Shown: positions 7,810-33,998 of the stretch, piece after piece | Position numbering within the stretch: position 1 is the first letter of the stretch | Layout of the letters: each line of letters starts with the position of its first letter | Assembly: GCF_002931075.1 (NCBI RefSeq) | Contig: NZ_PSTQ01000004.1 | Location: 1 to 64,000, forward strand | Origin: Pseudoclavibacter sp. AY1F1 | GTDB taxonomy: Bacteria; Actinomycetota; Actinomycetes; Actinomycetales; Microbacteriaceae | Direction of reading: 5' to 3' | DNA length: 64,000 bases | The notes under the pieces: generated by a model | What the model was told of the DNA's origin: nothing | Database searches by the model: none | Seen by the model: the letters and a program-made list of their open reading frames with translations, nothing else | Program-made: the position numbers and the translations under genes

Positions 7810-9498
7810 ATGCAGCAGCACCGCGATGATGACGTTCCGGACCCTGGGTTTGACCCTTCGGATCCGGTGTCGGTCGCGGCGCGGCGGTCGGAGATTCTGG
7901 CGTTGGAGGAGGCTGCCGCGGCGATGCTCGCGGCGGGTACGGCGTTGCAGTTGCGGGCGCACGCGGCGGCGTACGAGTTCGGGCACGCGCTTGATCGTGC
8001 TGAGGGGTGCGCGGAGTCGGCGATGCATGTGCGCTCGATCGCGAACGAGGTGGGGTTGCTGGTGAGGCTCGCCGCTGGGACCGCGCAGGGGCACCTGGCG
8101 TCGGCGGCGGTGACGTTGCGGGAGTTCCCGGCGCTCACGTTCGCGCTCGAGGAGAATCTGGCGATGCCTGCGCAGGCTAGCACGCTTGCGAGCGTCGGGT
8201 TGAAGGTGAACCATGAGGATCCCGCGGAGCAGGTGCTGCGTCGGGCCGAGTTCCTGCAGGTCATGCTCGAGCGGGTGCGGCAGGAACCGTTGCCGCCCAA
8301 GGCTCTCCAGAAGGCGGCTGAGCGGGTCGCGGAGGAGCTCACCGGGGAGTCCATCGATCAGCGTTACGAGCGGGCGAAGAAACGCCGCCGCGCGAGCGTC
8401 GAGGACCTCGGCGACGGCATGAGCGTGCTGCGTGTGCTGATGAGCTCGTTTGTCGCGAACGCTGTCCTGGACCGGGCGCGGAAGCAGGGCAAAGCGATCA
8501 TCAAGGCACGCCCCAAGCCAGACGCCACGATCGAAGAGCCAGCGGACGGCGCGAACCCGGCAGCCGGCACGAGCGCTGCAGCGGGCACGAACTTGTCGGC
8601 CGGCGGGAACCTAGCAGCGGGCACGAGCATCAACGCGGCGGGCGGGGAAGACAGCGCGGACCATGCGCCCGACGAGCGCACCCTTGACCAGGTCATGTCG
8701 GACGTCATCGCGGACACGCTCCTCACGAGCGACCCCATGAACCCCTCGGCCACCGCCGCGAGAGGCATCCAAGCCACCGCGCACATCAGCATCCCGGCCA
8801 CGAGCATGCTGGCCGGCCCGAACAGTGGTGGCCCGAACACCGGCGGCCTCAACTCCGGCGGCCCAGGCGGCCGGGGCTTTGCTCCGGCGCTGCTGGATGG
8901 CATGTCGCCCATGCCGCTTGAAGAAGCGAAACGCCTCGCCGCCACCGCGCCGGCCTTCATTCGCGTCCTCACGCACCCCGTGACGGGTGCCGTGCAGGCC
9001 GTCGACTCGTACACGCCCACCGCCGCGATGCGCGCGTTCCTGCAAGCCCGCGACGTGCACTGCCGCTTCATCGGCTGCCGACAACCCGCCGCGAGATGCG
9101 AACTCGATCACACCATCGATCACCAGTACGGGGGCAAGACCGCCGTCTGGAACCTCAGCGACTTCTGCCTCGCGCACCACATCGTGAAACACCACACCGC
9201 CTGGCAAGTCAGACAGTTAGGCGGCGGGATCCTCGAGTGGACGACTCCGAGCGGGAAGGTCTACATCGACCGACCCGAACCCTACGGCGTGATCTTCACA
9301 CCAAGCGACGAACTCCCACGAATGGCTTCGGTGAGCCCACGCTCGGCGGCAGCAAGAACGGCAGATCGACAACCAGATCGACAACCAGAACTGGAACCGG
9401 AAACAACACCGGCGTCGGTGCCAGCACCGGGCGACGATCGACCGCCCGGCGGTGACTCGCCTCCGCGCGCCCTCACCGTTCAGCCACCGCCGTTCTAA
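7810..9498 (+). CDS. DUF222 / 13E12-repeat HNH endonuclease-like protein
   Basis: A 562-residue protein of the DUF222-HNH family, multicopy in many Micrococcales and mycobacteria; its biological role is unsettled. The N-terminal ~230 residues are the Ala/Glu-rich helical DUF222 domain. A low-complexity Gly/Ala/Asn linker (about residues 250-290 and 335-360) follows, then the HNH nuclease domain at about 417-463: C-x-x-x-x-C, E-L-D-H-T-I-D-H-Q-Y-G-G-K-T, N-L and C-x-x-H-H-x-x-K-H-H. The cysteines and HNH histidines look intact. The first 750 bases use codons ending in G or T more than neighbouring genes, which may point to transfer. The tail after the HNH domain is proline-rich and disordered. 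Confidence 0.9.
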   Translation: MQQHRDDDVPDPGFDPSDPVSVAARRSEILALEEAAAAMLAAGTALQLRAHAAAYEFGHALDRAEGCAESAMHVRSIANEVGLLVRLAAGTAQGHLASAAVTLREFPALTFALEENLAMPAQASTLASVGLKVNHEDPAEQVLRRAEFLQVMLERVRQEPLPPKALQKAAERVAEELTGESIDQRYERAKKRRRASVEDLGDGMSVLRVLMSSFVANAVLDRARKQGKAIIKARPKPDATIEEPADGANPAAGTSAAAGTNLSAGGNLAAGTSINAAGGEDSADHAPDERTLDQVMSDVIADTLLTSDPMNPSATAARGIQATAHISIPATSMLAGPNSGGPNTGGLNSGGPGGRGFAPALLDGMSPMPLEEAKRLAATAPAFIRVLTHPVTGAVQAVDSYTPTAAMRAFLQARDVHCRFIGCRQPAARCELDHTIDHQYGGKTAVWNLSDFCLAHHIVKHHTAWQVRQLGGGILEWTTPSGKVYIDRPEPYGVIFTPSDELPRMASVSPRSAAARTADRQPDRQPELEPETTPASVPAPGDDRPPGGDSPPRALTVQPPPF

Positions 9499-9584
9499 GC
9501 TCGCGGTCCGCACGTGGGCGCGGGAAGATCTGTCCGGCCCGCGGGGGGACAACCGCTGGCCCATCCGGTGCGTGCATCCCATGC

Positions 9585-9690
9585 GAATAGCTGCTAAGTG
9601 GGCCCTGGAGGAGCTGCGAAAGGGCCCTGGGCATGGCCGCGAAGTGCGGCTAGGAATAGCTGCGACGTGCGGCTGGGAATAGCTGCGAAA
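9585..9690 (+). repeat. 23-bp tandem repeat and related GAATAGCTGC copies
   Basis: Two adjacent 23-bp units (9644-9666 and 9667-9689) differ at two positions, and the core GAATAGCTGC occurs a third time at 9585-9594. The repeat runs into the ribosome-binding purine tract of the FrnE-like gene. Confidence 0.75.
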
Positions 9691-9704
9691 GGGGGCCTGT
9701 TGCA

Positions 9705-10433
9705 TTGCGTGTGACGACAGCAGCGCAGGACGCACCCCAGAACAGCCCGCAGGCCGGCTCAGAGCAGGCACCGATCCGCATCGACATCTGGTCGGACATC
9801 GCTTGCCCCTGGTGCTACATCGGGAAGCGCAAGCTGGAGAGCGGCATCGAGCAGTTCTCCGCGGGCGGCAACGCGCCAGCCATCGAGATCGAGTACCACA
9901 GCTACGAGCTCTCCCCCGATACGCCCATCGACTTCCACGGGTCGACGACGGAGTACCTCGCCGAGCGCAAGGGCCTTCCCGTCGTGCAGGTCGAGCAGAT
10001 GCTCGACCGAGTCACCGGAATCGCCAAGGACGTCGGCCTCGATTACGACTTCGACTCGGTGCAGCACGTGAACACCGTGCGCGCCCACGAACTCATCCAC
10101 TTCGCCAAGGCGAACGGCCGCCAACTCGAAGCGAAGGAGCGCCTCCTAAAGGCCTACTTCGTCGAGGGACAGGACCTCAGCGACATCGAAGTGCTCGCCG
10201 ACCTCGCCGCCGAACTCGGCCTCGACCGCGCCGCTGCCGTGTACGCTCTCGAAGAGCGCATCCACCACGACGATGTGCTCGCCGACCAGCAGCAGGCGCA
10301 GGCCTACGGCATCCAGGGCGTCCCGTTCTTCGTGATCGACGGCAAGTACGGCGTCTCCGGGGCACAAGAAGCGGCGACCTTCTCCGACGTCCTCACCAAG
10401 ATCACGAGCGACCGCGACGAGGTGACCGTATGA
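9705..10433 (+). CDS. DsbA-family oxidoreductase, FrnE type
   Basis: A 242-residue cytosolic thioredoxin-fold protein without a signal peptide. The redox motif is C-P-W-C (Cys34 and Cys37 counted from TTG), in the context D-I-W-S-D-I-A-C-P-W-C-Y-I-G-K-R. The helical insert of the FrnE subgroup follows, and the cis-proline strand is G-V-P-F-F-V-I-D at about residues 208-215. The TTG at 9705 lies 9 nt behind an AAAGGGGG tract; a GTG at 9711 is an equally plausible start but less well spaced. FrnE homologues are linked to disulfide handling and oxidative-stress tolerance. The next gene overlaps it by 4 bases. Confidence 0.9.
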   Translation: MRVTTAAQDAPQNSPQAGSEQAPIRIDIWSDIACPWCYIGKRKLESGIEQFSAGGNAPAIEIEYHSYELSPDTPIDFHGSTTEYLAERKGLPVVQVEQMLDRVTGIAKDVGLDYDFDSVQHVNTVRAHELIHFAKANGRQLEAKERLLKAYFVEGQDLSDIEVLADLAAELGLDRAAAVYALEERIHHDDVLADQQQAQAYGIQGVPFFVIDGKYGVSGAQEAATFSDVLTKITSDRDEVTV

Positions 10434-10660
10434 GGGCGGGCACCGCAGCGGACGCCAGCACGAACGCGCCCACGAGGCCCGCGGAGACGAACCTCGAGAC
10501 GGTTCTCCTTCTGGCAGACTTCCCCCAGGCGACTCCGCCGATGGAGTCCGGCCCCTCGCAGGCCGAGGCCCGTCAAACTGCAGAAGCGGCGACTCCGGGC
10601 GGCTTCACAATGCTCGGCGACGCGGGCACCGCCTGCGAAAGTGACGCCTGCCTGCTCTGA
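10430..10660 (+). CDS. Small protein with a cysteine-containing C-terminal tail, coupled to FrnE
   Basis: A 76-residue protein whose ATG overlaps the FrnE stop (ATGA), which strongly suggests it is translated. There are no membrane segments and no recognised domain. The only cysteines are in the last dozen residues, in the tail G-T-A-C-E-S-D-A-C-L-L, preceded by F-T-M-L-G-D. The pattern C-x4-C right after a thiol oxidoreductase suggests a redox partner or substrate, but that is inference. Base composition matches the neighbours. Downstream to 10812 is a cag/aca-rich low-complexity spacer. Confidence 0.65.
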   Translation: MRAGTAADASTNAPTRPAETNLETVLLLADFPQATPPMESGPSQAEARQTAEAATPGGFTMLGDAGTACESDACLL

Positions 10661-10812
10661 CAGACAGCCAGACAGACAGCGAGAGCGAGTTCGCTTCCTC
10701 AGACCGACAGCAGGACCAGCGTCTGCCACAAGGCTCGACCGGACAGACCCACACCCTTCTCCGCTTCGGCGCCTGGGCGCTGCCCGGGTTGCAGTGTGAT
10801 GAACTCTCCGAC

Positions 10813-11562
10813 ATGGGATTCACGAGTTTCGCGGCCGTCGGGGACAGCTTCACCGAGGGCGTCGGAGACGAGTTGCCGGGCGGTCAGGTCCGCGGCTGGG
10901 CCGACCTTGTTGCCCAGGGCCTCGCAGTCTCCTCACCAGAGCCGGTCACGTACGCGAACCTCGCCATCCGCGGACGCCTCCTCGACGCGATCCTCGAGGA
11001 GCAGCTGCCTGCCGCGATCGCCCTCAAACCGCAGCTGCTGAGCCTCAACGGGGGCGGAAACGACATCCTGCGCCCCCGCGTCTCCATCGACGCCGTCGCC
11101 CAGCGCCTCGTCGACGGGGCCAAGCAGGCACTGGACGCGGGCATCCACGTCATCCTCCTCTCGGGCGCCAACCCCTCAGACCACCTGCCGATGGGCAAGC
11201 GGATCAGCGCCCGCGGCGATGCGCTCGCGGCCGCCGTCCACGCGAAAATCCCGGCGCAGCCGGGCCTGACCTTCGTCGACAACTGGGCCGACCCCGAGCT
11301 CCGGCACCTCGACTACTGGTCGCGCGACCGCCTCCACATGGGAGCGAGCGGGCACCAGCGGGTTGCCGCAAACGTGCTCACGGCCCTCGAAGTGCCAGCG
11401 CCCGACTTCGGCCCGCAGGCCTCGAGCATCCAGCGTCCGCGCAATTCCGCGTACTGGCGCGAGTACGTCCTGCCCTGGATCGGCCGGCGCCTCACCGGCA
11501 GATCCTCCGGCGACACCCGCACGGCCAAGTACCCGACCCTCGAACGCGTCGTCACAGAGTAA
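10813..11562 (+). CDS. SGNH/GDSL-family hydrolase
   Basis: A 249-residue esterase/lipase-like hydrolase with the SGNH active-site blocks in order: block I A-V-G-D-S-F-T-E-G with nucleophile Ser12, block III G-G-G-N-D-I-L with the oxyanion Asn, and block V D-R-L-H-M-G-x-x-G-H supplying Asp and His. There is no signal peptide, so it is likely cytoplasmic. The C-terminal ~45 residues contain R-E-Y-V-L-P-W-I-G-R-R, common in actinobacterial members. The ATG starts directly before F-T-S-F-A-A-V-G-D-S; an upstream in-frame start would add 8 residues. The substrate is unknown. Confidence 0.92.
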   Translation: MGFTSFAAVGDSFTEGVGDELPGGQVRGWADLVAQGLAVSSPEPVTYANLAIRGRLLDAILEEQLPAAIALKPQLLSLNGGGNDILRPRVSIDAVAQRLVDGAKQALDAGIHVILLSGANPSDHLPMGKRISARGDALAAAVHAKIPAQPGLTFVDNWADPELRHLDYWSRDRLHMGASGHQRVAANVLTALEVPAPDFGPQASSIQRPRNSAYWREYVLPWIGRRLTGRSSGDTRTAKYPTLERVVTE

Positions 11563-11720
11563 GCACACGACACCTCGACGACGAGGGCCCCCTCCACAGG
11601 TCAAGTGGATGCGGCTGGCGGCGCGAGGTGGAGCGCACAGGGCCCGGCACGCCGGTAGCTGGGCCCGAGAGGCCGGCCCGAGAGACGAAGCCCCCCGAGG
11701 CCGGCCCGAGGCCAGGCACG

Positions 11721-12239
11721 CTACTTGTAGAAGCCCTCTCGGAGACGGACGCCGTGCTCGAGCCACACCTTCATGGCGGCCAGCATGCCGGTCCACCCCA
11801 TCGAGTTGCCAAACGCCGCCTTCGCACCGGAATCGGTGAGGCTCCAGGCCGACTCGCTGATCCGGACCCGCGTGCGGGCCCCGTCGTCGACCGGGTCGAA
11901 CTCGAACGTCGTCGTCGTGAAGCCCTGCCCGGCGCTGTCGTCCTCTGCATCCCACCGAACGACGATGCGGCTCGGCGAGACCGCCTCTACGACGTTGACG
12001 GGGAACGCCCCAGGGAAGTCAGCGAAGTCCCACTGCACCTCCGCTCCGGTCTCCAGCCGCCCCTTCGCGCCGCCCGTCGTGAAGTACTCGGAGAGGACTC
12101 TCGGGTCGGCGACCGCCTCGTACACCTCGCGCACGGGCTTCGAGATGAAGCCGGAGACCGTGAACCTCAGCGCCGTCAACGCACCACTCTCGCTCGCGCC
12201 GCCATCCCCACCAACGCTGCTCCTCGTGTCATCGCTCAT
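11721..12239 (-). CDS. SRPBCC (AHSA1/START-like) domain protein
   Basis: A 172-residue helix-grip-fold protein of the activator-of-Hsp90 homologue 1 family. After a Gly/Ser-rich leader of ~20 residues it shows I-S-K-P-V-R-E-V-Y-E-A-V-A-D-P, then G-A-E-V-x-W-D-F, and a C-terminal helix around G-W-T-G-M-L-A-A-M-K-V-W-L-E-H-G. The ATG is preceded by GAGAGAG at suitable spacing. Such proteins bind hydrophobic ligands in a deep cavity; no ligand can be predicted. It is convergent with the SGNH hydrolase, and the 158 bases between them hold GGCCCGAG repeats but no clear terminator. Confidence 0.9.
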   Translation of the reverse strand: MSDDTRSSVGGDGGASESGALTALRFTVSGFISKPVREVYEAVADPRVLSEYFTTGGAKGRLETGAEVQWDFADFPGAFPVNVVEAVSPSRIVVRWDAEDDSAGQGFTTTTFEFDPVDDGARTRVRISESAWSLTDSGAKAAFGNSMGWTGMLAAMKVWLEHGVRLREGFYK

Positions 12240-26385: not shown

Positions 26386-27138
26386 GTGCTCGAGCTGCTC
26401 CCCCAACTGCCCGCATTCGCCTGGGCGCTGCTCGCGGTCGCCGCCTTCGCCGTCGGCATCTCGAAGACCGCTCTCCCCGGAGTCACGACCCTGTCGGTCG
26501 CGACCTTCGCCGCTGTCCTCCCCGCCAAGCAGTCCACCGGCGCGCTCCTGGTGCTGCTCATCGTCGGCGACATGTTCGCCCTCTGGACTTACCGGCGCCA
26601 CGCTGACTGGCCCACGCTCGTCAAGCTCATCCCGGCTGTCGCCGTCGGTCTGCTCGCAGGTGCCGCGTTCCTCGCCTTCGCCGACGACGACTGGGTGCGA
26701 CGCGTCATCGGCATCATCCTGCTCGTCCTCGTGGCGATCACCGTGTGGCGCCGCTACCGCACCCCGGAGACGCCGAGCGACCGAGCCGCCAAGGTCGCGC
26801 GAGCCAGCTACGGCTCGCTCGGCGGGTTCACGACGATGGTCGCCAACGCCGGCGGGCCCGTCATGTCGATGTATTTCCTCGCCGCCAAGTTCCCTGTCAA
26901 GGCCTTCCTGGGCACCGCCGCCTGGTTCTTCGCGATCGTCAACATAGCGAAGCTGCCGTTCTCGATCGGCTTGGGCCTCATCACGCCGGGCACCCTGGTT
27001 TTAGACCTGCTCCTCGTGCCGCTCCTCATCGGAGGTGCCTTCCTTGGCCGCTGGCTCGCGCCGCGCCTCAGCCAGAAGCTCTTCGACCGCATCGTGCTGG
27101 TGCTGACGATCGCCGGCGCCGTCTACCTGCTCGTGTAG
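26386..27138 (+). CDS. TauE/SafE-family sulfite exporter-like permease
   Basis: A 250-residue membrane protein with about eight hydrophobic helices and the duplicated TauE/SafE architecture. Signature-like parts are A-V-G-I-S-K-T-A-L-P-G-V in the first half and G-S-L-G-G-F-T-T-M-V-A-N-A-G-G-P-V in the second. The GTG start is right behind the -10 hexamer. The family exports sulfite, sulfonates or related small organic anions. No sulfur-metabolism gene adjoins it, so the cargo is open. Confidence 0.92.
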   Translation: MLELLPQLPAFAWALLAVAAFAVGISKTALPGVTTLSVATFAAVLPAKQSTGALLVLLIVGDMFALWTYRRHADWPTLVKLIPAVAVGLLAGAAFLAFADDDWVRRVIGIILLVLVAITVWRRYRTPETPSDRAAKVARASYGSLGGFTTMVANAGGPVMSMYFLAAKFPVKAFLGTAAWFFAIVNIAKLPFSIGLGLITPGTLVLDLLLVPLLIGGAFLGRWLAPRLSQKLFDRIVLVLTIAGAVYLLV

Positions 27139-27254
27139 CGCAGGCACCCAGGCTGCCCCGTGTGCCCGCGACACCGGGCCTCGCCAGCCGGCTCGCGCAC
27201 GCCCACTGCGGTGTAGTACGCCGAGAGAAGCGGCGGGCGACGCGGCGGGAGACG

Positions 27255-27500
27255 CTACGACGAGCGCCGGAAAAGCCCCTTCAGTCGCGACATGTGGCGA
27301 TCCGTGAATTCGTTCGAGAGCTTCATCGTCTCGGCCGTCAGGTTGCCGCCCGCCATGATGGAACGGAGCGTCGCCTCGGCCCGCTCCTGCTGAGTCGGGG
27401 TGCGTTGCGCGCCGGAAGCGGCGGCCCCGTCGACCCCGCGCTCGCGCTCGTGCTCCAGCTCGCTCTCGCGCGCGCTCGGGACCTGCTCAGCATCAACCAT
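27255..27500 (-). CDS. Small hypothetical protein
   Basis: An 81-residue soluble protein with a charged N-terminal half and a helical C-terminus: Q-Q-E-R-A-E-A-T-L-R-S-I-M-A-G-G-N-L-T-A-E-T-style sequence followed by L-K-G-L-F-R-R. The ATG at 27500 is chosen; the open frame extends to 27545 but the extra residues look unrelated. No domain is recognised and the ribosome site is weak. Confidence 0.5.
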   Translation of the reverse strand: MVDAEQVPSARESELEHERERGVDGAAASGAQRTPTQQERAEATLRSIMAGGNLTAETMKLSNEFTDRHMSRLKGLFRRSS

Positions 27501-27605
27501 GACGGCAAGGCTACACAGCAGCTCGACTTCGCCGTTCGCCCGCACCGCAGCCGAGGAAGTGCGCCCGTCAGGGGGCCGATGGGCTGTGCTCGCCAGGGGT
27601 GCCCG

Positions 27606-28637
27606 TCAGGCCGCGCCAGCCGCATCCCCCTCGCAGACGCCCCCGAATTCCCGGAGCCAGCGGATGCCGACCTCGCGAGTACGCAGCACCCCCTTGTACT
27701 CAGCCATGTCGTCCGGCAGCTCCTCGAGCACTTCCGCCGTGCGTGCCGCCCACTCTGACACCGTGGCGAGAGCCGCGAACGGCAGAAGGTAGCTGCGGAT
27801 CAGGAACATGATGGCGTTCGATTCGGGCAGGCGGATGAGGTGCTGCACCTCGGTGCGAAGATGCAGCCGTTCGCCGACCGCAGCGAGAGGACCATCCACG
27901 AGCGACGTCCGGTCAGGGCCCCACTCCGGATAGGTCTCCGTCGACGTGTCGAGCTTCCCGTCGACCGTGAGCGTCCAGTTGGTGCGCCGGAAGCTCTGCC
28001 CCGGCTCGAGGCGCATGAGGAACTCCTGCGCGCGCGGGATGACGCCCTCGTCGTGCACGCGAGGAACCGGGCCGTGGATCTCGAGGAACGACATGCCGAC
28101 GTCGAATCCGAACGACCAGTCCGCGGCGAACGTCACGAGGCCGGCATCCGCCCACAGCTCGCCGTCGCGCTGATCAAGGAGCACGATGTCTTCCTGGATT
28201 TGCTGACCGATGAAGCCGAGCGGGCCCTCAGGCATCGACGACGCTTCGCCTACGGCGAAGCAGCGGTCAACGCCGAGGAGGCCGTTGTGCCAATGCCACC
28301 CGCCGCCCTCTCGCGTGAGGCTCATGTGCTCCGGGTACGCCTCGGCGAGCTGCTCCATGAGCACGAACATCGCGTCCCACGCGGCCGGGACCATGTGCGG
28401 CAGGCACTGCAGCCGAGACGGGTCATCGCTCAGGATGCGGGCTCGCTCGGCGAGCTCACCCCGATACGCGTGGTCGATGTCGACCGGATGCTCGCCCCAG
28501 GAACCGGCGGCCGTGGCGCGGGGCACGGATGCCGGCTCCACGTTGGTGCTGTAGCGGTAGGTCTCCTTCGGGAACGGGAACGGGAAGGCGGCGACTGCGA
28601 CGGAGTGGTCGACCTCGCCGGGGATGGATGCGGTCAC
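27606..28637 (-). CDS. Haem-dependent oxidative N-demethylase family protein (DUF3445)
   Basis: A 343-residue protein of the DUF3445 family, whose characterised members are haem-containing oxygenase components acting in dimethylamine oxidation in Pseudomonas. Diagnostic stretches are L-P-H-M-V-P-A-A-W-D-A-M near residue 80, V-Q-E-D-I-like Q-E-D-I-V-L-L, F-A-A-D-W-S-F-G-F-D-V-G, R-R-T-N-W-T-L-T and a conserved R-S-Y-L-L-P. The GTG overlaps the reductase stop (GTGA), making it last in a four-gene coupled operon with its likely electron donor. The expected reaction is O2- and NAD(P)H-dependent removal of a methyl group from a secondary amine; the true substrate here is unproven. Confidence 0.88.
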   Translation of the reverse strand: MTASIPGEVDHSVAVAAFPFPFPKETYRYSTNVEPASVPRATAAGSWGEHPVDIDHAYRGELAERARILSDDPSRLQCLPHMVPAAWDAMFVLMEQLAEAYPEHMSLTREGGGWHWHNGLLGVDRCFAVGEASSMPEGPLGFIGQQIQEDIVLLDQRDGELWADAGLVTFAADWSFGFDVGMSFLEIHGPVPRVHDEGVIPRAQEFLMRLEPGQSFRRTNWTLTVDGKLDTSTETYPEWGPDRTSLVDGPLAAVGERLHLRTEVQHLIRLPESNAIMFLIRSYLLPFAALATVSEWAARTAEVLEELPDDMAEYKGVLRTREVGIRWLREFGGVCEGDAAGAA

Positions 28638-29623
28638 AGTTCAAGCTCCAGGATCTCGCCTCGCGGGCGGGAGACGCACGGCATGAGGCAGTCGCCGCGG
28701 CCCTTCTCCTCATCGGTGAGGAAGCTGTCGCGGTGCTCGATGCCCGCGGTGTCCTTGTCCCCGGAGCCTGGGCGCACTCGGACGGCGACGCGGCACTCAC
28801 CGCAGACGCCCTGCCTGCAGAGGTTCGGCACGGGCACGTTCTCGGCGAGCAGCGCGTCGAGGAGAGTGGTGCCTGACTCGACACGGATCGTGCGTCCAAG
28901 GCGCAGCAACTTCGCATCGAAGGGCTCGCCCGGCTCGAGAGCGGGGGCAGTGAAGGCCTCGGCGTGGACGCGCGAGTCCGGCCAGCCGGCCGCCCCGGCC
29001 GCGCTCGTCACGGCCTCGATCATGGCGACCGGACCGCACACGTAGAGGTGCGCCCCCAGCGGCTGGTCGATGAGGGCAGCTGCGAGGTGCGCGCGCAGCT
29101 CTCCGCGGCTGCCGCAGACCGTGAGGCGTCCCCCGCTCAGTTCCTCAAGCTCTTCGCGGTGCGCTCCCCCGCCCTCCCCGTGCGCATAGACCACCTCGAA
29201 GGAGCGGCCCCACTCGGCGGCCGCCCTCGCGTGCGAGAGGATCGGGGTGACGCCGATGCCGCCCGCGATCAGCAGGTGGTGCCGCGCAGAGAGCACGGGT
29301 GGGAACGCACTCGACGGCGCACTGGCCGTGACCGAGTCGCCTGGCTGCAGGCCGTGCATCCACCGCGAACCCCCACGCCCCGCCTCGTCGAGTCGGACCG
29401 AGATCGAGTAGGACTCGGGGCGCCGACCTGGTCCAGTGAGTGAGTAGGAGTTGCGGGCGGGCGCGGCGCCCGGAACCTGAGCCCCGACCTGCACGGCGAT
29501 GCTGCTGCCGGGCGCAAACGACGGCAGCGTGCGCTCGCTCGGGTCGCGGAGCGTCAACGCGCGCACCCCGCCCCCGAGTTCTGTGATGCCGGCCACAACA
29601 AGCTCGAGCATCACAGCACTCAT
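28634..29623 (-). CDS. PDR/VanB-type oxidoreductase (FMN/NAD(P)H, 2Fe-2S)
   Basis: A 329-residue one-component reductase. The N-terminal half has the flavin-binding barrel (N-S-Y-S-L-T, then S-I-S-V-R), the middle the NAD(P)-binding fold (G-G-I-G-V-T-P-I-L and Y-V-C-G-P-V-A-M-I), and the C-terminus a plant-type ferredoxin cluster C-R-Q-G-V-C-G-E-C plus a distant Cys in D-C-L-M-P-C. It passes electrons from NAD(P)H to the neighbouring haem oxygenase component. ATGA and GTGA overlaps tie it to the genes on both sides. Confidence 0.93.
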   Translation of the reverse strand: MSAVMLELVVAGITELGGGVRALTLRDPSERTLPSFAPGSSIAVQVGAQVPGAAPARNSYSLTGPGRRPESYSISVRLDEAGRGGSRWMHGLQPGDSVTASAPSSAFPPVLSARHHLLIAGGIGVTPILSHARAAAEWGRSFEVVYAHGEGGGAHREELEELSGGRLTVCGSRGELRAHLAAALIDQPLGAHLYVCGPVAMIEAVTSAAGAAGWPDSRVHAEAFTAPALEPGEPFDAKLLRLGRTIRVESGTTLLDALLAENVPVPNLCRQGVCGECRVAVRVRPGSGDKDTAGIEHRDSFLTDEEKGRGDCLMPCVSRPRGEILELEL

Positions 29624-30390
29624 GCGAAAGCCAGCTGGCTCGGCTCGCGCGCGGGCTGCGGCGTGGCAGCGAGCTCCGCGTCAGCGAAATACCCCAGGTA
29701 CGCGCCCTGTCGGCGCGAGAAGTGGTAGTAGATGGTGAGCTGCAGGCCGCAGCCAGCGCACGTCACAGTCCCGTTCGCCGCGCCAGTCCCGTTCGCCGCG
29801 CCAGTCCCGTTCGCCGCGCCAGGGCCGAGCGTCTTCGACTGACAGTGCCCGCAGGAGACGAGGACCCGGCCAACTTCAGATGCCGGAGGGGCGAGTACAA
29901 GCGTGATCTCCTCGTCGAGCACTCCGGCTTCGTGCAGGATCGCGCGCAGCGCCCCGAGCGAGGGCTCGTCGCCGACGACCCGAAACCGCCACCCGGTTCT
30001 GGCCTCGGCGAGCGCCGCGGCGATGCGGTCTCGCGAAGCGCGCGAGGCCGCAGTGGCGAGCTCGACCACCGTGCCATGGCCGCGATCCGCTGGCGCCTCG
30101 CCCGTTGCCAGGACACCGGCGCTCACGTCTGGACGCCCCTCCGCCCCGACGAGGAACGTGATCGTGCGAGCCGCGAAGGCTCCCTCGAAGGCGGGCCTGC
30201 CGGCATCGCGGCTTCCCGCGTCCAGCATCCGGCGCCACCTTGAGGAGCTCGTGGCCGTCGCGCTCACACCCGGCGCCGTGTCCAGGCCGAGCACAGTGCC
30301 CGGGGTCGGCGCGACCGGGTTCGCACCTGTCGTCTCACATTCCGTCTCACGTTCCGTGACACCTGCTGCCGCTCCCGTCGTCGCTCCCAT
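29620..30390 (-). CDS. DmmA-like subunit of dimethylamine monooxygenase, zinc-ribbon C-terminus
   Basis: A 256-residue protein. An unconserved N-terminal ~50 residues is followed by a domain with F-R-V-V-G-D-E-P-S-L and an acidic, aliphatic strand E-I-T-L-V-L. The C-terminus carries two metal-type knuckles, S-C-G-H-C-Q and C-A-G-C-G-L-Q-L, ending in Y-Y-H-F-S-R-R-Q-G-A-Y-L-G-Y. That last block is the hallmark of DmmA-family proteins encoded with DUF3445 oxygenases. Between the knuckles an 18-bp tandem repeat inserts three copies of G-A-A-N-G-T, lengthening the loop. Start is the ATG 5 bases below the cupin stop; subunit naming is from memory. Confidence 0.82.
   Translation of the reverse strand: MGATTGAAAGVTERETECETTGANPVAPTPGTVLGLDTAPGVSATATSSSRWRRMLDAGSRDAGRPAFEGAFAARTITFLVGAEGRPDVSAGVLATGEAPADRGHGTVVELATAASRASRDRIAAALAEARTGWRFRVVGDEPSLGALRAILHEAGVLDEEITLVLAPPASEVGRVLVSCGHCQSKTLGPGAANGTGAANGTGAANGTVTCAGCGLQLTIYYHFSRRQGAYLGYFADAELAATPQPAREPSQLAFA
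29767..29820 (-). repeat. 18-bp tandem repeat, three units, inside the DmmA-like gene
   Basis: Three identical 18-bp units encoding G-A-A-N-G-T between the two cysteine knuckles. Frame is preserved. Confidence 0.92.
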
Positions 30391-30395
30391 GATCG

Positions 30396-30797
30396 TCAGG
30401 GAGCGACGGAGCGGTGGCCGACGTAGAAGGCGAGCGCCGAGTCCTCGGTGCTGAAGAGGATGCGGGAGCCCTTCGGGAAGAAGATGGCGTCCCGCGGACC
30501 CGCGAACGAGACCTGACCCGTATCCACGTTCTCGAGACGGAAGGTGCCGGAGAGCACCACCTTCATCTCGTCGTAGTCGTAGAAGTAGTCGAGCGGCGCG
30601 TCGGTGTGGGTGAGCGCGAAGTAGCCCGCCGACATGGCGGAGCCGTCAGGGTTCGAGTAGACGTCGGCGATGTACCCGTCAGTGCCCGGGTACTGCTCGA
30701 GCGGCATGCGCGGGAGGTCAGCCCAGAAGTCCGGCGTCACCCTGAACGGAGGGATAGCCGTGGTCACGGCGTCGATGCTCATGAATTCAGTGCTCAT
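30396..30797 (-). CDS. Cupin-domain protein (ethanolamine-utilisation EutQ-like)
   Basis: A 133-residue single-domain cupin. The fold is shown by F-A-L-T-H-T-D-A-P-L-D-Y-F-Y-D-Y-D-E-M-K-V-V-L-S-G-T-F-style sequence and G-P-R-D-A-I-F-F-P-K-G-S. A glutamate in the first cupin motif is retained, while the His pair is partly replaced by Tyr/Asp, so metal binding is uncertain. Starts at 30797 or 30782 are both possible. It is the first gene of the amine-monooxygenase operon, 5 bases from the next start. A role in substrate binding or regulation is inferred from position only. Confidence 0.8.
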   Translation of the reverse strand: MSTEFMSIDAVTTAIPPFRVTPDFWADLPRMPLEQYPGTDGYIADVYSNPDGSAMSAGYFALTHTDAPLDYFYDYDEMKVVLSGTFRLENVDTGQVSFAGPRDAIFFPKGSRILFSTEDSALAFYVGHRSVAP

Positions 30798-30947
30798 GAA
30801 CCCAGTATCGAGTGAACGTCGTTTCCTCCGTGTAAACGGTGGTGGTCGATCTGGTTCCCGTTCGAGCACACACGCGGGCCCGGGATGCAGGCAGAGCTGC
30901 GTGCGCGATACGGGGTCGGCATACGGGCTGGGATACGGACCGGGATC

Positions 30948-31334
30948 TCAGGCGTCGTGGGCATCCAGAGCGTCGAGCTCGGCCAGCGCCGTCCGCGCCC
31001 GCTCGAGGCGTGCCGCCTCAGGCTCCTCCCACCAGCGCGGCCCGCGCTCGCCCAGCCCGTGCTTCGCGAGGCCGACCCGCTTGCGCGAGGCCGCGACCGC
31101 CTCCTCATCACCACGGCGCTTCGCGGCACCCACCCCGGATCGCGCCCGCCCGAGATGCGACTTCAGCCGCTCCACCAACTCAGCGGGCAGGCTCGGGTCG
31201 GTGCGCCGCCAGCGGCGGCCCTTCACGATCAGCCAACGTTCATCGTCGATCGCCGAGTCCGACTCAGCGTCAGCGTCAGCGTCAGCGTCAGCGTCAGTGT
31301 GACGTTCCGGCTCGCCAGCGCGCTTGATGGCCAT
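30948..31334 (-). CDS. Conserved small basic protein (annotated elsewhere as 'biopolymer transporter Tol')
   Basis: A 128-residue protein. The core starts D-D-E-R-W-L-I-V-K-G-R-R-W-R-R-T-D-P-S-L-P and continues with a basic helix (L-K-S-H-L-G-R-A-R-S-G-V) and G-L-G-E-R-G-P-R-W-W-E. This architecture is widespread in actinobacteria, where it often carries the misleading name 'biopolymer transporter Tol'; it is soluble and its function is unknown. The N-terminal tail is a D-A repeat from an expanded hexanucleotide. On the minus strand the ATG lies 6 nt behind a TAGTGT hexamer (31346-31341), again a leaderless layout. Confidence 0.78.
   Translation of the reverse strand: MAIKRAGEPERHTDADADADADAESDSAIDDERWLIVKGRRWRRTDPSLPAELVERLKSHLGRARSGVGAAKRRGDEEAVAASRKRVGLAKHGLGERGPRWWEEPEAARLERARTALAELDALDAHDA
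31261..31300 (-). repeat. Hexanucleotide repeat (GTCAGC) coding for a D-A tail
   Basis: Six or seven consecutive GTCAGC units on the plus strand, read on the minus strand as Ala-Asp repeats near the N-terminus of the small basic protein. Confidence 0.85.
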
Positions 31335-31384
31335 ACGCCGACACTACGCGCGTACGACCATCAAGCGAGGGCACCGACTACCGA

Positions 31385-32914
31385 TCAGCGCGTGACACCA
31401 ACTGCACCGTCGACGCGACGCGGGATGCCGAGCGGATTCGCTTCCTTGAGACCATCGGGAAGCAGAGCTTCGGGGAACCCCTGGTAAGCAACCGGCCTCA
31501 GGAACCGGAAGACTGCAGCCGCCCCGACCGACGTGGTTGCGGGTGCCGTTGTCGCCGGGTACGGTCCACCGTGCTGCTGTGCGTAGGTCACGGAGACGCC
31601 CGTCGACCACTGGTTCCAGAGAACGCGGCCGGCTTTCTCCTGTGCGAGCTGCACGAGCTCGCGCACGCTCTCGATCGCCGTATCCGCTTCCTCACCGAAG
31701 ACGCTGACCGTGAGCTGTCCAGCGAATTCGCGGAGAATGCGCACCTGGTCGACCTCGTCGTTGTACGTGACAACAACTGCGGCCGGACCGAAGTGCTCCT
31801 CAGCCAGCTCCGCAGCATGCTCGAGGAAGGTGTTGGCGTCGGTGCTGTACAGCGAGAGCCCGCGAGCACCAGCCGGGGTCCCGTCGGCGTGGGCGAGCGT
31901 CGTCAGCTTGGGGTTGCCGTGCAGCCATTCGAGAGACCGCTCGAACCCGGACTCGATTCGAGCGTTCAGAAGCCTGTGCGTCTCGAGCTGCTGGATCTCC
32001 TGGAGTTCGGCCAGCAACGGGCTGCCCGCGGGTACAACCAGGACGCCCGGCTTGGTGCACAGCTGGCCTGAGCTGCCGGCGACGGCAGCAAGGAACCCCG
32101 CCGCGATCTCGGTCGCCCGCGTGTCGGCTGCGGCGCGCGTCACGAACACCGGGTTGACGCTTCCGAGCTCACCGAAGAAGGGAATCGGCTCTTCACGCGA
32201 TGCAGCGAGGTCGAAGAGGGCCCGGCCGCCCGCGATCGAGCCAGTGAATGAGGCGGCCTTCAGCGCGGGATGCAGAAGAGCCCTGCGTCCGTTCTCGGTT
32301 CCGGTCACGAGGGCAAATGTGCCTTCGGGGGCGCCTACCGCGCGCAGCGCAGTCGTGACGACAGCTGCAGTCGCGACCGAGAGCTCGACATGGCCAGAGT
32401 GCGCCTTGACGATGACGGGGCACCCCGCCGCGAGAGCCGATGCGGTGTCTCCGCCAGCGACGCTGAACGCGAAGGGGAAGTTGCTCGCGGCGAAGACCAG
32501 GGCAGGACCGACGGCGACGAGGTGCCGCCTCAGGTCCGGGCGCGGGGCCCCCATCGGCCAGTTCACGTCGGCGTGGTCGATGGTCGCCTGCGAGAGCTGG
32601 CCAGCCTCAAGCTCATCAGCGAAGAACCTAAGCTGGAACGTCGTGCGTGCCAGCTCGCCCTTCAAACGCCCCTCGAGGAGGTTCGTCTCTCGCATGGCGA
32701 TCGAAATCAGGCTCCCTGCGGAATCGTCGAGGGCGTCGGCAACGAGGCGGAGAGCGGTGGCTCGGCCGGCCGCCGAGGTTGCACCCCAGACACGGGATGC
32801 TCGAGCGGCACGATCAACAAGCTGATCCACAACCGCATCTGCATCCACCCTGGCCGCGTCAGCCGCCGGTGCCGAGGCTGCGTCGACGACGGTCAGGTCG
32901 GGGCCGCCCGTCAC
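31385..32914 (-). CDS. Alpha-ketoglutarate semialdehyde dehydrogenase (aldehyde dehydrogenase family, NADP+)
   Basis: A 509-residue aldehyde dehydrogenase of the 2,5-dioxovalerate group. It shows F-A-A-S-N-F-P-F-A-F-S-V-A-G-G-D-T-A-S-A-L-A-type cofactor entrance, K-A-H-S-G-H, F-T-G-S, the catalytic glutamate in F-G-E-L-G-S-V-N-P and the catalytic cysteine in S-S-G-Q-L-C-T-K-P-G. The K-A-H and G-E-L-G-S-x-N-P variants separate this group from general aldehyde dehydrogenases. It oxidises 2,5-dioxopentanoate to 2-oxoglutarate. Its GTG overlaps the stop of the kdgD-like gene, whose product makes the same aldehyde. Confidence 0.92.
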   Translation of the reverse strand: MTGGPDLTVVDAASAPAADAARVDADAVVDQLVDRAARASRVWGATSAAGRATALRLVADALDDSAGSLISIAMRETNLLEGRLKGELARTTFQLRFFADELEAGQLSQATIDHADVNWPMGAPRPDLRRHLVAVGPALVFAASNFPFAFSVAGGDTASALAAGCPVIVKAHSGHVELSVATAAVVTTALRAVGAPEGTFALVTGTENGRRALLHPALKAASFTGSIAGGRALFDLAASREEPIPFFGELGSVNPVFVTRAAADTRATEIAAGFLAAVAGSSGQLCTKPGVLVVPAGSPLLAELQEIQQLETHRLLNARIESGFERSLEWLHGNPKLTTLAHADGTPAGARGLSLYSTDANTFLEHAAELAEEHFGPAAVVVTYNDEVDQVRILREFAGQLTVSVFGEEADTAIESVRELVQLAQEKAGRVLWNQWSTGVSVTYAQQHGGPYPATTAPATTSVGAAAVFRFLRPVAYQGFPEALLPDGLKEANPLGIPRRVDGAVGVTR

Positions 32915-33870
32915 GCTGTCGCTCCGCTGAGCGCCGCGGTTGAGACCCCCGTGAGTGCCGACGTGCGGTCGACCAGCGCTTGCAGGTCGTCTGCGTCAAC
33001 CTGCGTCAGGCGCTGCAGCGGTGGACGGACAGTGCCGCCGTCTCGGCCGACAGCGTCAAGCCCGGCCTTGACGATCGAGACGCCGTAGCCTTTCTCCCGG
33101 TCTCGGATGTCGAGGTAGGGGATGACGAACTCGTTGAGCTTCTCGTAGACCGTCTTGCGGTCATTCGCGAGCACATCACGGTGGAAGTCGAGCGCGAACT
33201 CCGGGAGGAAGTTGCAGAGCGCAGACGAGTAGGTGTTGAAGCCGAGCTGGAGGAGCGGGAGCGCGAAGGTCTCGGCGGTCGGGAGCCCGCCGATGTACAT
33301 GAGGCGATCACCGAGGCGGGCGTAGATGCGGGCCATGGCCTCGATGTCGCCGATGCCGTCCTTGAAGCCGACGAAGTTCGGGTTCCGCTCGGCCAGGATT
33401 TCAACCGACTCGGCGGAGAGGATGGCGTTGGCACGGTTGTAGACGATCACACCGAGAGATGTGGCGCGGCACACAGCCTCAACGTGGGCGACGAGACCCG
33501 CCTGCGACCCCTCAGTCAAGTACGGGGGCAGCAGCAGGATTCCGTCGGCGCCCTGCACTTCAGCGTCGGCCGCCTGCTGCGTCGCCACCGCAGTGGCGCC
33601 GGTCGCTGGCGCCACGATCGGCAGGCGGCCGCCGACCTCGTCGACCGCGACGGAGACGACGCGACGGACCTCTTCAGTCGTGAGCGAGAACCCCTCGCCC
33701 GTCCCACCGGCGACGAACAGCCCAGCCAAGGAGAACCCCGACTGCCAGTCGAGGTGCTGACGGTAGCGGTCTTCGTCGACCTGAAGAGCTTCGGTGAAGT
33801 GCGTCACCGGGAAGGTGAGCAGGCCGCCCTTGAGTGTGGCGGCGAGATCTGTTGGGTGCAGTGCTGACAC
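32911..33870 (-). CDS. kdgD: 5-dehydro-4-deoxyglucarate dehydratase
   Basis: A 319-residue class-I aldolase-fold enzyme of the DHDPS superfamily that decarboxylates and dehydrates 5-dehydro-4-deoxy-D-glucarate to 2,5-dioxopentanoate. KdgD-specific segments are G-L-L-T-F-P-V-T-H-F, F-V-A-G-G-T-G-E-G-F-S-L, L-L-P-P-Y-L-T-E-G-S-Q, V-I-V-Y-N-R-A-N-A with the conserved Tyr, and V-G-F-K-D-G-I-G-D-I-E with the Schiff-base Lys. The GTG at 33870 has AAAGG 8 nt upstream; that site lies in a predicted hairpin. The glucarate dehydratase that would supply its substrate is not in the window. A related pyrroline-carboxylate deaminase is less likely given these motifs. Confidence 0.93.
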   Translation of the reverse strand: MSALHPTDLAATLKGGLLTFPVTHFTEALQVDEDRYRQHLDWQSGFSLAGLFVAGGTGEGFSLTTEEVRRVVSVAVDEVGGRLPIVAPATGATAVATQQAADAEVQGADGILLLPPYLTEGSQAGLVAHVEAVCRATSLGVIVYNRANAILSAESVEILAERNPNFVGFKDGIGDIEAMARIYARLGDRLMYIGGLPTAETFALPLLQLGFNTYSSALCNFLPEFALDFHRDVLANDRKTVYEKLNEFVIPYLDIRDREKGYGVSIVKAGLDAVGRDGGTVRPPLQRLTQVDADDLQALVDRTSALTGVSTAALSGATA

Positions 33871-33876
33871 GGTGTT

Positions 33877-33933
33877 GCCTTTCGTAGGTCCGCGGCGGAA
33901 CTGCGCCGACGCCGCGACTCGGTAACGAAAGGC
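33877..33933 (-). promoter_or_regulatory. Two-stem leader hairpin enclosing the kdgD ribosome-binding site
   Basis: In the kdgD leader, outer arms of 9 bp (33925-33933 with 33877-33885, GCCTTTCGT/ACGAAAGGC) and inner arms of 7 bp (33910-33916 with 33891-33897, CGCGGCG/CGCCGCG) are all perfect. The 3' outer arm contains the AAAGG ribosome site, 6 bases before the GTG. The fold would hide it. It may equally be a protein-bound operator. Confidence 0.55.
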
Positions 33934-33998
33934 TAGGCAACGCCATTGATGCCTGTCCAAGTGCATTCGGACATGATCAGATGCCGTAGAGGTATCGA

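Follow-up and report, generated by a model that had tools for sequence, protein, structure and literature searches.

A four-gene operon of Pseudoclavibacter sp. AY1F1 with a leading EutQ-like cupin gene, probably encoding an actinobacterial dimethylamine monooxygenase of the DmmABC/HODM type

The window analyzed in this study, a stretch of 64,000 nucleotides from Pseudoclavibacter sp. AY1F1 (contig NZ_PSTQ01000004.1, positions 1 to 64,000), carries on its minus strand a four-gene operon whose products resemble the subunits of a dimethylamine monooxygenase. The first gene (30797–30396) encodes a small EutQ-like cupin of 133 amino acid residues, the second (30390–29620) a DmmA-like zinc-ribbon subunit of 256 residues, the third (29623–28634) a DmmB-like flavin/NAD(P)/2Fe-2S reductase of 329 residues and the fourth (28637–27606) a polypeptide of 343 residues belonging to the HODM alpha/DmmC/DUF3445 family, which is presumed to be the catalytic subunit. 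The first three open reading frames (ORFs) start with ATG and the last one with GTG. All four are open. The dmmA and reductase genes overlap by four bases (ATGA), as do the reductase and HODM genes (GTGA), and 5 bases separate the cupin gene from dmmA. A previous reading of the window from its letters alone, termed the sequence-only reading hereafter, had described a coupled four-gene operon with this span (27606–30797) and these junctions. The ORFs were identified with our own caller, which uses a GC-position score, and are approximate. Neither a sigma-70-like promoter nor a terminator was found for the operon (0.2 and 0.9, respectively, expected by chance).

The DUF3445 protein scored 221.4 bits against PF11927 (HODM_asu-like; cut-off of 25). 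In a sequence search of solved structures, it was matched over almost its full length (residues 13–332; E value of 5e-101) by 5LTE (HODM), the sole solved relative found by sequence. Conservation within the families was assessed with alignments of chosen sequences, which included 53 cupins, 38 DmmA-like proteins and 32 HODM proteins. H188 of HODM alpha was invariant in all 32 aligned proteins and is also present in 5LTE, which has identical residues at the positions of H188, R261 and E263; H188 is a candidate haem ligand. The DmmA-like protein scored 80.8 bits against NF041259 (cut-off of 60) and 43.7 bits against PF22289 (cut-off of 27.4). Its C180, H182, C183, C211, C214 and H223 were invariant in the alignment, and its fold search returned no match at an E value of 0.001 or better. 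The reductase was over the cut-offs of PF22290 (DmmA-like_N; 73.3 bits, cut-off of 33), PF00111 (Fer2; 41.7 bits, cut-off of 21) and PF00175 (NAD_binding_1; 32.3 bits). The sequence-only reading had placed the operon in the dimethylamine-type haem N-demethylating monooxygenase family and had suggested a search with DUF3445 and DmmA profiles. With PF11927, NF041259 and PF22289 all over cut-off, this placement is supported by the profiles, the match to 5LTE and the synteny described below.

Scanning one genome per species with HODM confirmed 143 relatives, and the best 80 of these 143 loci were compared. This set is biased towards the window's kind, and all of its members are actinobacterial by title. 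For the counts, the main copy was taken to be the HODM with the best score in the locus. The order dmmA-reductase-HODM was kept in 78 of the 80 loci, and the cupin gene was found upstream and on the same strand in 54. Given that the same order recurs in dozens of loci, the arrangement cupin-dmmA-reductase-HODM is not a matter of chance. The leading cupin, which had been singled out as distinctive, is therefore real but is not special to the window. The 26 loci without an upstream cupin were largely those of Mycolicibacterium/Mycobacterium; in addition, a contig end cuts locus L021, leaving a partial cupin, and in L033 the cupin lies downstream instead. Three congeneric loci, L003, L004 and L005, retain all four genes, with cupins 92–95% and HODMs 91–93% identical to those of the window.

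The dmmA gene of the window contains an 18-bp tandem repeat (29766–29822, minus strand; 3.2 copies, 100% match), which extends the loop that joins the two Cys pairs in its product. Among the dmmA genes of three aligned congeners, those of L003 and L005 lacked the repeat, while that of L004 had a different insert. Thus, the repeat noticed in the sequence-only reading does exist, but it was rejected as a functional hallmark, and the lengthened loop is a local, incidental variation. In Gordonia, both of the loci scanned (L032, 8908–10494; L041, 8950–10479) encode an in-frame fusion of HODM alpha with a C-terminal DmmA-like domain. Other Gordonia loci hold ORFs of 504–532 residues (only L032 and L041 were scanned). 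This fusion suggests that the two subunits touch.

The cupin scored 45.3 bits against EutQ PF06249 (cut-off of 21), whereas its 38.9 bits against the EutQ equivalog NF012001 fell below the cut-off of 193. It is the only gene of the EutQ family in the window genome. The AlphaFold2 model of the cupin had a mean predicted local distance difference test score of 89.5, and its best fold matches were EutQ 2pyt (Z of 14.5, 26% identity, root mean square deviation of 2.2, 112 residues aligned) and EutQ 4axo (Z of 14.4, 25% identity), followed by other cupins at 13.4 and below. Y71, Y73, Y75, D76, E77 and K79 were common to the 53 aligned cupins. Metal-dependent cupin enzymes possess conserved histidine metal ligands in two cupin motifs. 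No histidine was found among the invariant or nearly invariant columns of the 53 aligned cupins, and other residues may serve as ligands. A role as a standard metal cupin enzyme was rejected on this basis, and the cupin is probably metal-free.

The distribution of the cupin was determined in two genome samples, some genomes being in both, with E-value limits of 1e-8 for the cupin and 1e-20 for HODM. In the class sample of 394 genomes, which includes the window's own, HODM was found in 24 and the cupin in 9, among them the window genome, and all 9 cupin genomes also carried HODM (p of 2e-12, not corrected for relatedness). In the family sample of 401 genomes, the cupin was found in 74 and HODM in 90, and HODM was present in all 74 cupin genomes (Fisher p of 2e-65, likewise uncorrected). 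In 69 genomes, a total of 72 of the 77 cupin genes were followed on the same strand by HODM at a distance of no more than 5 kb. Five cupin genes were distant from HODM. The three inspected (those of G749 and G681 were left out) all lie within a few kb of a gene for a trimethylamine monooxygenase (Tmm)-like protein and one for a GcvT-type protein. For instance, a profile scan confirmed DUF1989, GCV_T and flavin monooxygenase (FMO)-like genes near the cupin of L095. The cupin adjoins Tmm-like genes in L094, L095, L096 and L109, and of the three cupin copies in genome G195, one stands beside a Tmm-like gene and another beside reductase-HODM. As HODM-distant cupins adjoin Tmm-like and GcvT genes, the cupin appears to go with methylated-amine oxidation as a whole and not with dimethylamine alone. 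Nor is it tied to one HODM type, since in L106 (genome G412; 8388–11755) it precedes a HODM of 47% identity in the changed order cupin, reductase, DmmA-like protein and HODM.

These results bear on whether the cupin is an ordinary neighbour that has been carried along by shared operon descent and plays no role in the oxidation of amines. In favour of such an explanation, the sampled genomes are related to one another, the upstream cupin is missing from 26 of the 80 loci (a contig end truncates at least one of these) and no cupin was found in 16 of the 90 family-sample genomes with HODM, including G500 (L108) and G668 (L107). Against it stand the presence of HODM in every cupin genome of both samples, when HODM occurs in only 90 of 401 and 24 of 394 genomes overall, and the company that all three inspected HODM-distant cupins keep. 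A bystander cupin is thus regarded as quite improbable. On plasmids, HODM was found in 149, mostly proteobacterial by organism counts, and a cupin match in 4; a Mycobacterium plasmid was on both lists and a Paracoccus plasmid on the cupin list. In the plasmid of Candidatus Mycobacterium methanotrophicum (L110, 8989–11830), the genes for cupin, DmmA, reductase and HODM lie among transposase genes and are followed by an APC permease gene, and this HODM is not in the gene table.

Elsewhere in the window genome, contig C5 holds a glnT-mgsA-mgsB-mgsC-like cluster, whose products were 60, 54, 62 and 86% identical, respectively, to queries from loci of Prescottella, Williamsia, Gordonia and Rhodococcus. 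The names were given by likeness to type III glutamine synthetase (glnT), class II glutamine amidotransferase (mgsA), GXGXG protein (mgsB) and FMN-glutamate-synthase (mgsC), and the C5 GlnT also passes TIGR03105. In addition, contig C8 encodes an FMO-like flavin monooxygenase that is 63% identical to the cupin-adjacent one of G195 and 58% identical to the oxidoreductase beside the dmm operon of Rhizobium etli; it is a putative Tmm. Among the relatives, glnT or mgsC homologs were found in the same stretch in 41 of the 80 loci, 40 of which also have the cupin upstream. Of the 64 loci of at least 16 kb, 36 had both the cupin and glnT/mgsC, 9 the cupin only, 1 glnT/mgsC only and 18 neither (Fisher p of 2e-8, not corrected for relatedness). 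Moreover, in L076 (Arthrobacter) an amino-acid-permease-family gene precedes the operon and a copper amine oxidase gene directly follows HODM. Permease ORFs like that of L076 also precede the cupin in L054, L057 and L079, as judged from the ORF listing and not from a profile scan, and a HUMPS/OMPdecase-family gene lies near the operon in L054 (Pseudarthrobacter).

Given the observed gene content, family membership, synteny and partner genes, we propose, with a probability of about 80%, that the product of the operon is an actinobacterial dimethylamine monooxygenase of the DmmABC/HODM type, with dimethylamine as the best guess for its substrate. The reductase would pass electrons from NAD(P)H via flavin and the 2Fe-2S cluster to the haem protein, and the PAS-fold haem protein with O2 would oxidize a methyl group of dimethylamine to yield methylamine and formaldehyde, with the DmmA zinc-ribbon protein as partner subunit. 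The type III glutamine synthetase and the mgsABC-like cluster would then probably assimilate the methylamine, mainly for nitrogen. The cupin would be an accessory of methylated-amine oxidation that most likely handles the product, either formaldehyde or an iminium/methylamine intermediate; alternatively, it could bind the amine as a sensor or chaperone.

Several results weigh against this proposal. The trimethylamine N-oxide (TMAO) demethylase (Tdm), DmmD and a sarcosine-oxidase-type N-methylglutamate dehydrogenase were not recognized in the window genome. PF01571 (GcvT) matched a single gene in the whole genome, which is presumably YgfZ, judging from its KGCYRGQE motif, and none of the four operon proteins. 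Similarly, neither a copper amine oxidase nor a close homolog of the Rhodococcus-type flavin adenine dinucleotide (FAD) oxidase was found in the window genome, the best match to the latter being 31% identical over residues 7–212. With Tdm/DmmD, N-methylglutamate dehydrogenase, FAD oxidase and copper amine oxidase all missing from the results, methylamine use is incomplete on paper. Moreover, the operon, the glnT-mgs cluster and the Tmm-like gene are on separate contigs. Finally, the glnT-mgs-type cluster may serve general nitrogen scavenging, as its M. smegmatis homologs are listed in nitrogen-starvation data: the part of that transcriptome study available to us gives ratios of 7 to 16 for amt1, glnT and the FwdC-like and glutamate-synthase-like genes (PMC4222082).

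The sequence-only reading had stated that no other methylamine gene is nearby and had argued from this that the substrate might be another N-alkyl compound. The former holds for the scanned neighbours, namely four other genes at 26386–33966, none of which is a methylamine gene, but the genome does hold the Tmm-like gene and the glnT-mgsABC-like cluster on other contigs. Their presence weakens the latter argument, even with the pathway still incomplete. An enzyme of the same type might nevertheless be tuned to another N-methyl substrate, such as trimethylamine, TMAO or a larger N-methylamine, and HODM itself may carry out the missing demethylation in actinobacteria that have a trimethylamine monooxygenase and no Tdm. 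Consistent with this, the window genome has a Tmm-like gene and no GcvT-type Tdm was found in it, and the cupin stands beside Tmm-like genes in the four loci named above.

A second, divergent HODM, 42–48% identical to that of the window, was found beside the first in 30 of the 80 loci (e.g., L012, L027, L070 and L077), often with its own reductase. These second copies possibly act on another substrate, and they make substrate divergence within the family plausible. The window genome has only one HODM gene, that of the operon, so a second HODM was rejected as part of the window system, and in a tree of the 32 HODM proteins the window HODM fell outside the second-copy clade (support of 100/100). 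Its closeness to 5LTE and the methylamine-assimilation-type genes beside the HODMs of its relatives also speak against another substrate, which is judged unlikely for the window enzyme. In the same tree, the HODMs of the window and L004 grouped with seven Nocardiaceae/Gordoniaceae sequences, apart from other Micrococcales, with a support of 94/89, which is below the star limit of the tool. This position hints at a transfer.

That the operon is redundant and decaying, its genes being lost in the lineage and its enzyme having no present role, would agree with the repeat expansion in dmmA, the scattered partner genes and the state of one relative. In P. helvolus DSM 20419 (L002, 6700–10029), a remnant consists of HODM preceded only by the 3′ part of the reductase gene; neither the cupin nor dmmA was found in this 19-kb locus, where unrelated sequence occupies their expected place. 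In the window, however, all four ORFs are open with coupled junctions, and the complete gene set is retained in L003, L004 and L005, which makes decay highly improbable.

Upstream of the operon (31385–33966) are genes for an aldehyde dehydrogenase and a 5-dehydro-4-deoxyglucarate dehydratase (TIGR03249, barely over cut-off), a pair that belongs to a glucarate-type sugar acid pathway. A hexamer repeat of 5.7 perfect copies at 31264–31297 codes for an Asp-Ala run in a small minus-strand ORF (31334–30948) that has no Pfam or NCBIfam match.

The DmmABC/HODM enzyme family and the occurrence of EutQ cupins near actinobacterial methylamine genes are already known. No paper that treats the cupin-dmm operon as such was found in the open-access literature searched, and PMC13390433 and PMC8875376 contributed nothing decisive. 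Of the known systems, HODM of Pseudomonas mendocina (5LTE/5LTH/5LTI), which we take to be a dimethylamine demethylase with haem, flavin mononucleotide (FMN) and tetrahydrofolate (THF), resembles the window system in its alpha subunit, with a match over residues 13–332 and equivalents of H188, R261 and E263 retained. The window system differs in that it is actinobacterial; moreover, the only GcvT protein found in its genome is the YgfZ-like one, so there is no other THF-binding one among the results. In the portion of the source available to us, 5LTE is a haem-b protein of P. mendocina with a PAS region at 155–290 (PMC8694187).

The window operon also shares the order dmmA, dmmB-like reductase and dmmC with dmmDABC of Ruegeria pomeroyi and relatives. 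According to the accessible text, dmmABC of R. pomeroyi alone suffices to convert dimethylamine to methylamine 1:1 in Escherichia coli, and DmmD is proposed to conjugate formaldehyde with tetrahydrofolate (H4F) (PMC5520151). Different from dmmDABC, the window operon lacks dmmD, which encodes a GcvT fold, and starts with the EutQ-like cupin gene. An aminomethyltransferase gene was present in all three proteobacterial dmm operons read, being first in R. etli and Aquabacterium and last in Cupriavidus, and none of the three has an annotated cupin. Relative to two of the three, the cupin thus holds the position of dmmD. A search with the DmmD of R. etli matched only L056 among the 80 loci, with 32% identity and a Tmm-like gene as neighbour. 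A further relative, 71% identical, is encoded in L100, which is the operon of G203, and no cupin match was obtained in that genome. L100 (4086–9409), also actinobacterial, contains dmmD-dmmA-reductase-HODM in the proteobacterial order, facing a Tmm-like gene, and was possibly acquired by transfer.

This pattern fits a replacement of DmmD by the cupin in actinobacteria. A simple or strict replacement is weakened, however, because the cupin is also near GcvT proteins in L094, L095, L109 and L056, and Mycolicibacterium-type operons have neither a cupin nor a GcvT protein nearby. In a more specific form, which we consider rather unlikely, the metal-free cupin would take over the job of the THF-dependent DmmD by catching formaldehyde (or the carbinolamine/iminium) from Dmm, Tmm/Tdm and methylamine oxidase and handing it to a carrier, e.g., mycothiol, or to the ribulose monophosphate route. 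Should the proposed function be true, haem-PAS dimethylamine demethylation would extend to actinobacteria (24 of the 394 class genomes have HODM), often with a cupin instead of the folate protein. The linkage of cupin and HODM in 74 of 74 genomes makes the role of this unexplained cupin directly testable.

Similar to the window cupin, whose model matched them best, EutQ of Salmonella and C. difficile (2pyt and 4axo) are EutQ-family cupins; different from them, the window cupin lies outside any ethanolamine operon. Closer in context are the EutQ cupins, of unknown function, that were noted in 2015 near Tmo/Mao genes in Arthrobacter and Mycobacterium (PMC5023230). In the sections of that paper available to us, a ferredoxin/flavodoxin gene was proposed to encode the TMAO demethylase (Tmd), and no separate dimethylamine monooxygenase was found. 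The genes of strain 31Y are numbered 2723 (Mao), 2725 (Tmd) and 2727 (EutQ), and the Tmd-EutQ spacing of two also occurs in 35W, M(A)-N2 and Mycobacterium 141 and not in 155 (PMC5023230). These cupins are of the same family by name and have the same neighbours as the window cupin, and the numbering fits the order cupin-dmmA-reductase-HODM-amine oxidase of L076. For this reason, the 2015 Tmd candidate, as far as gene numbers rather than sequences were compared, is probably the DmmB-like reductase of a HODM system, which would be a simpler account of the TMAO demethylase proposal.

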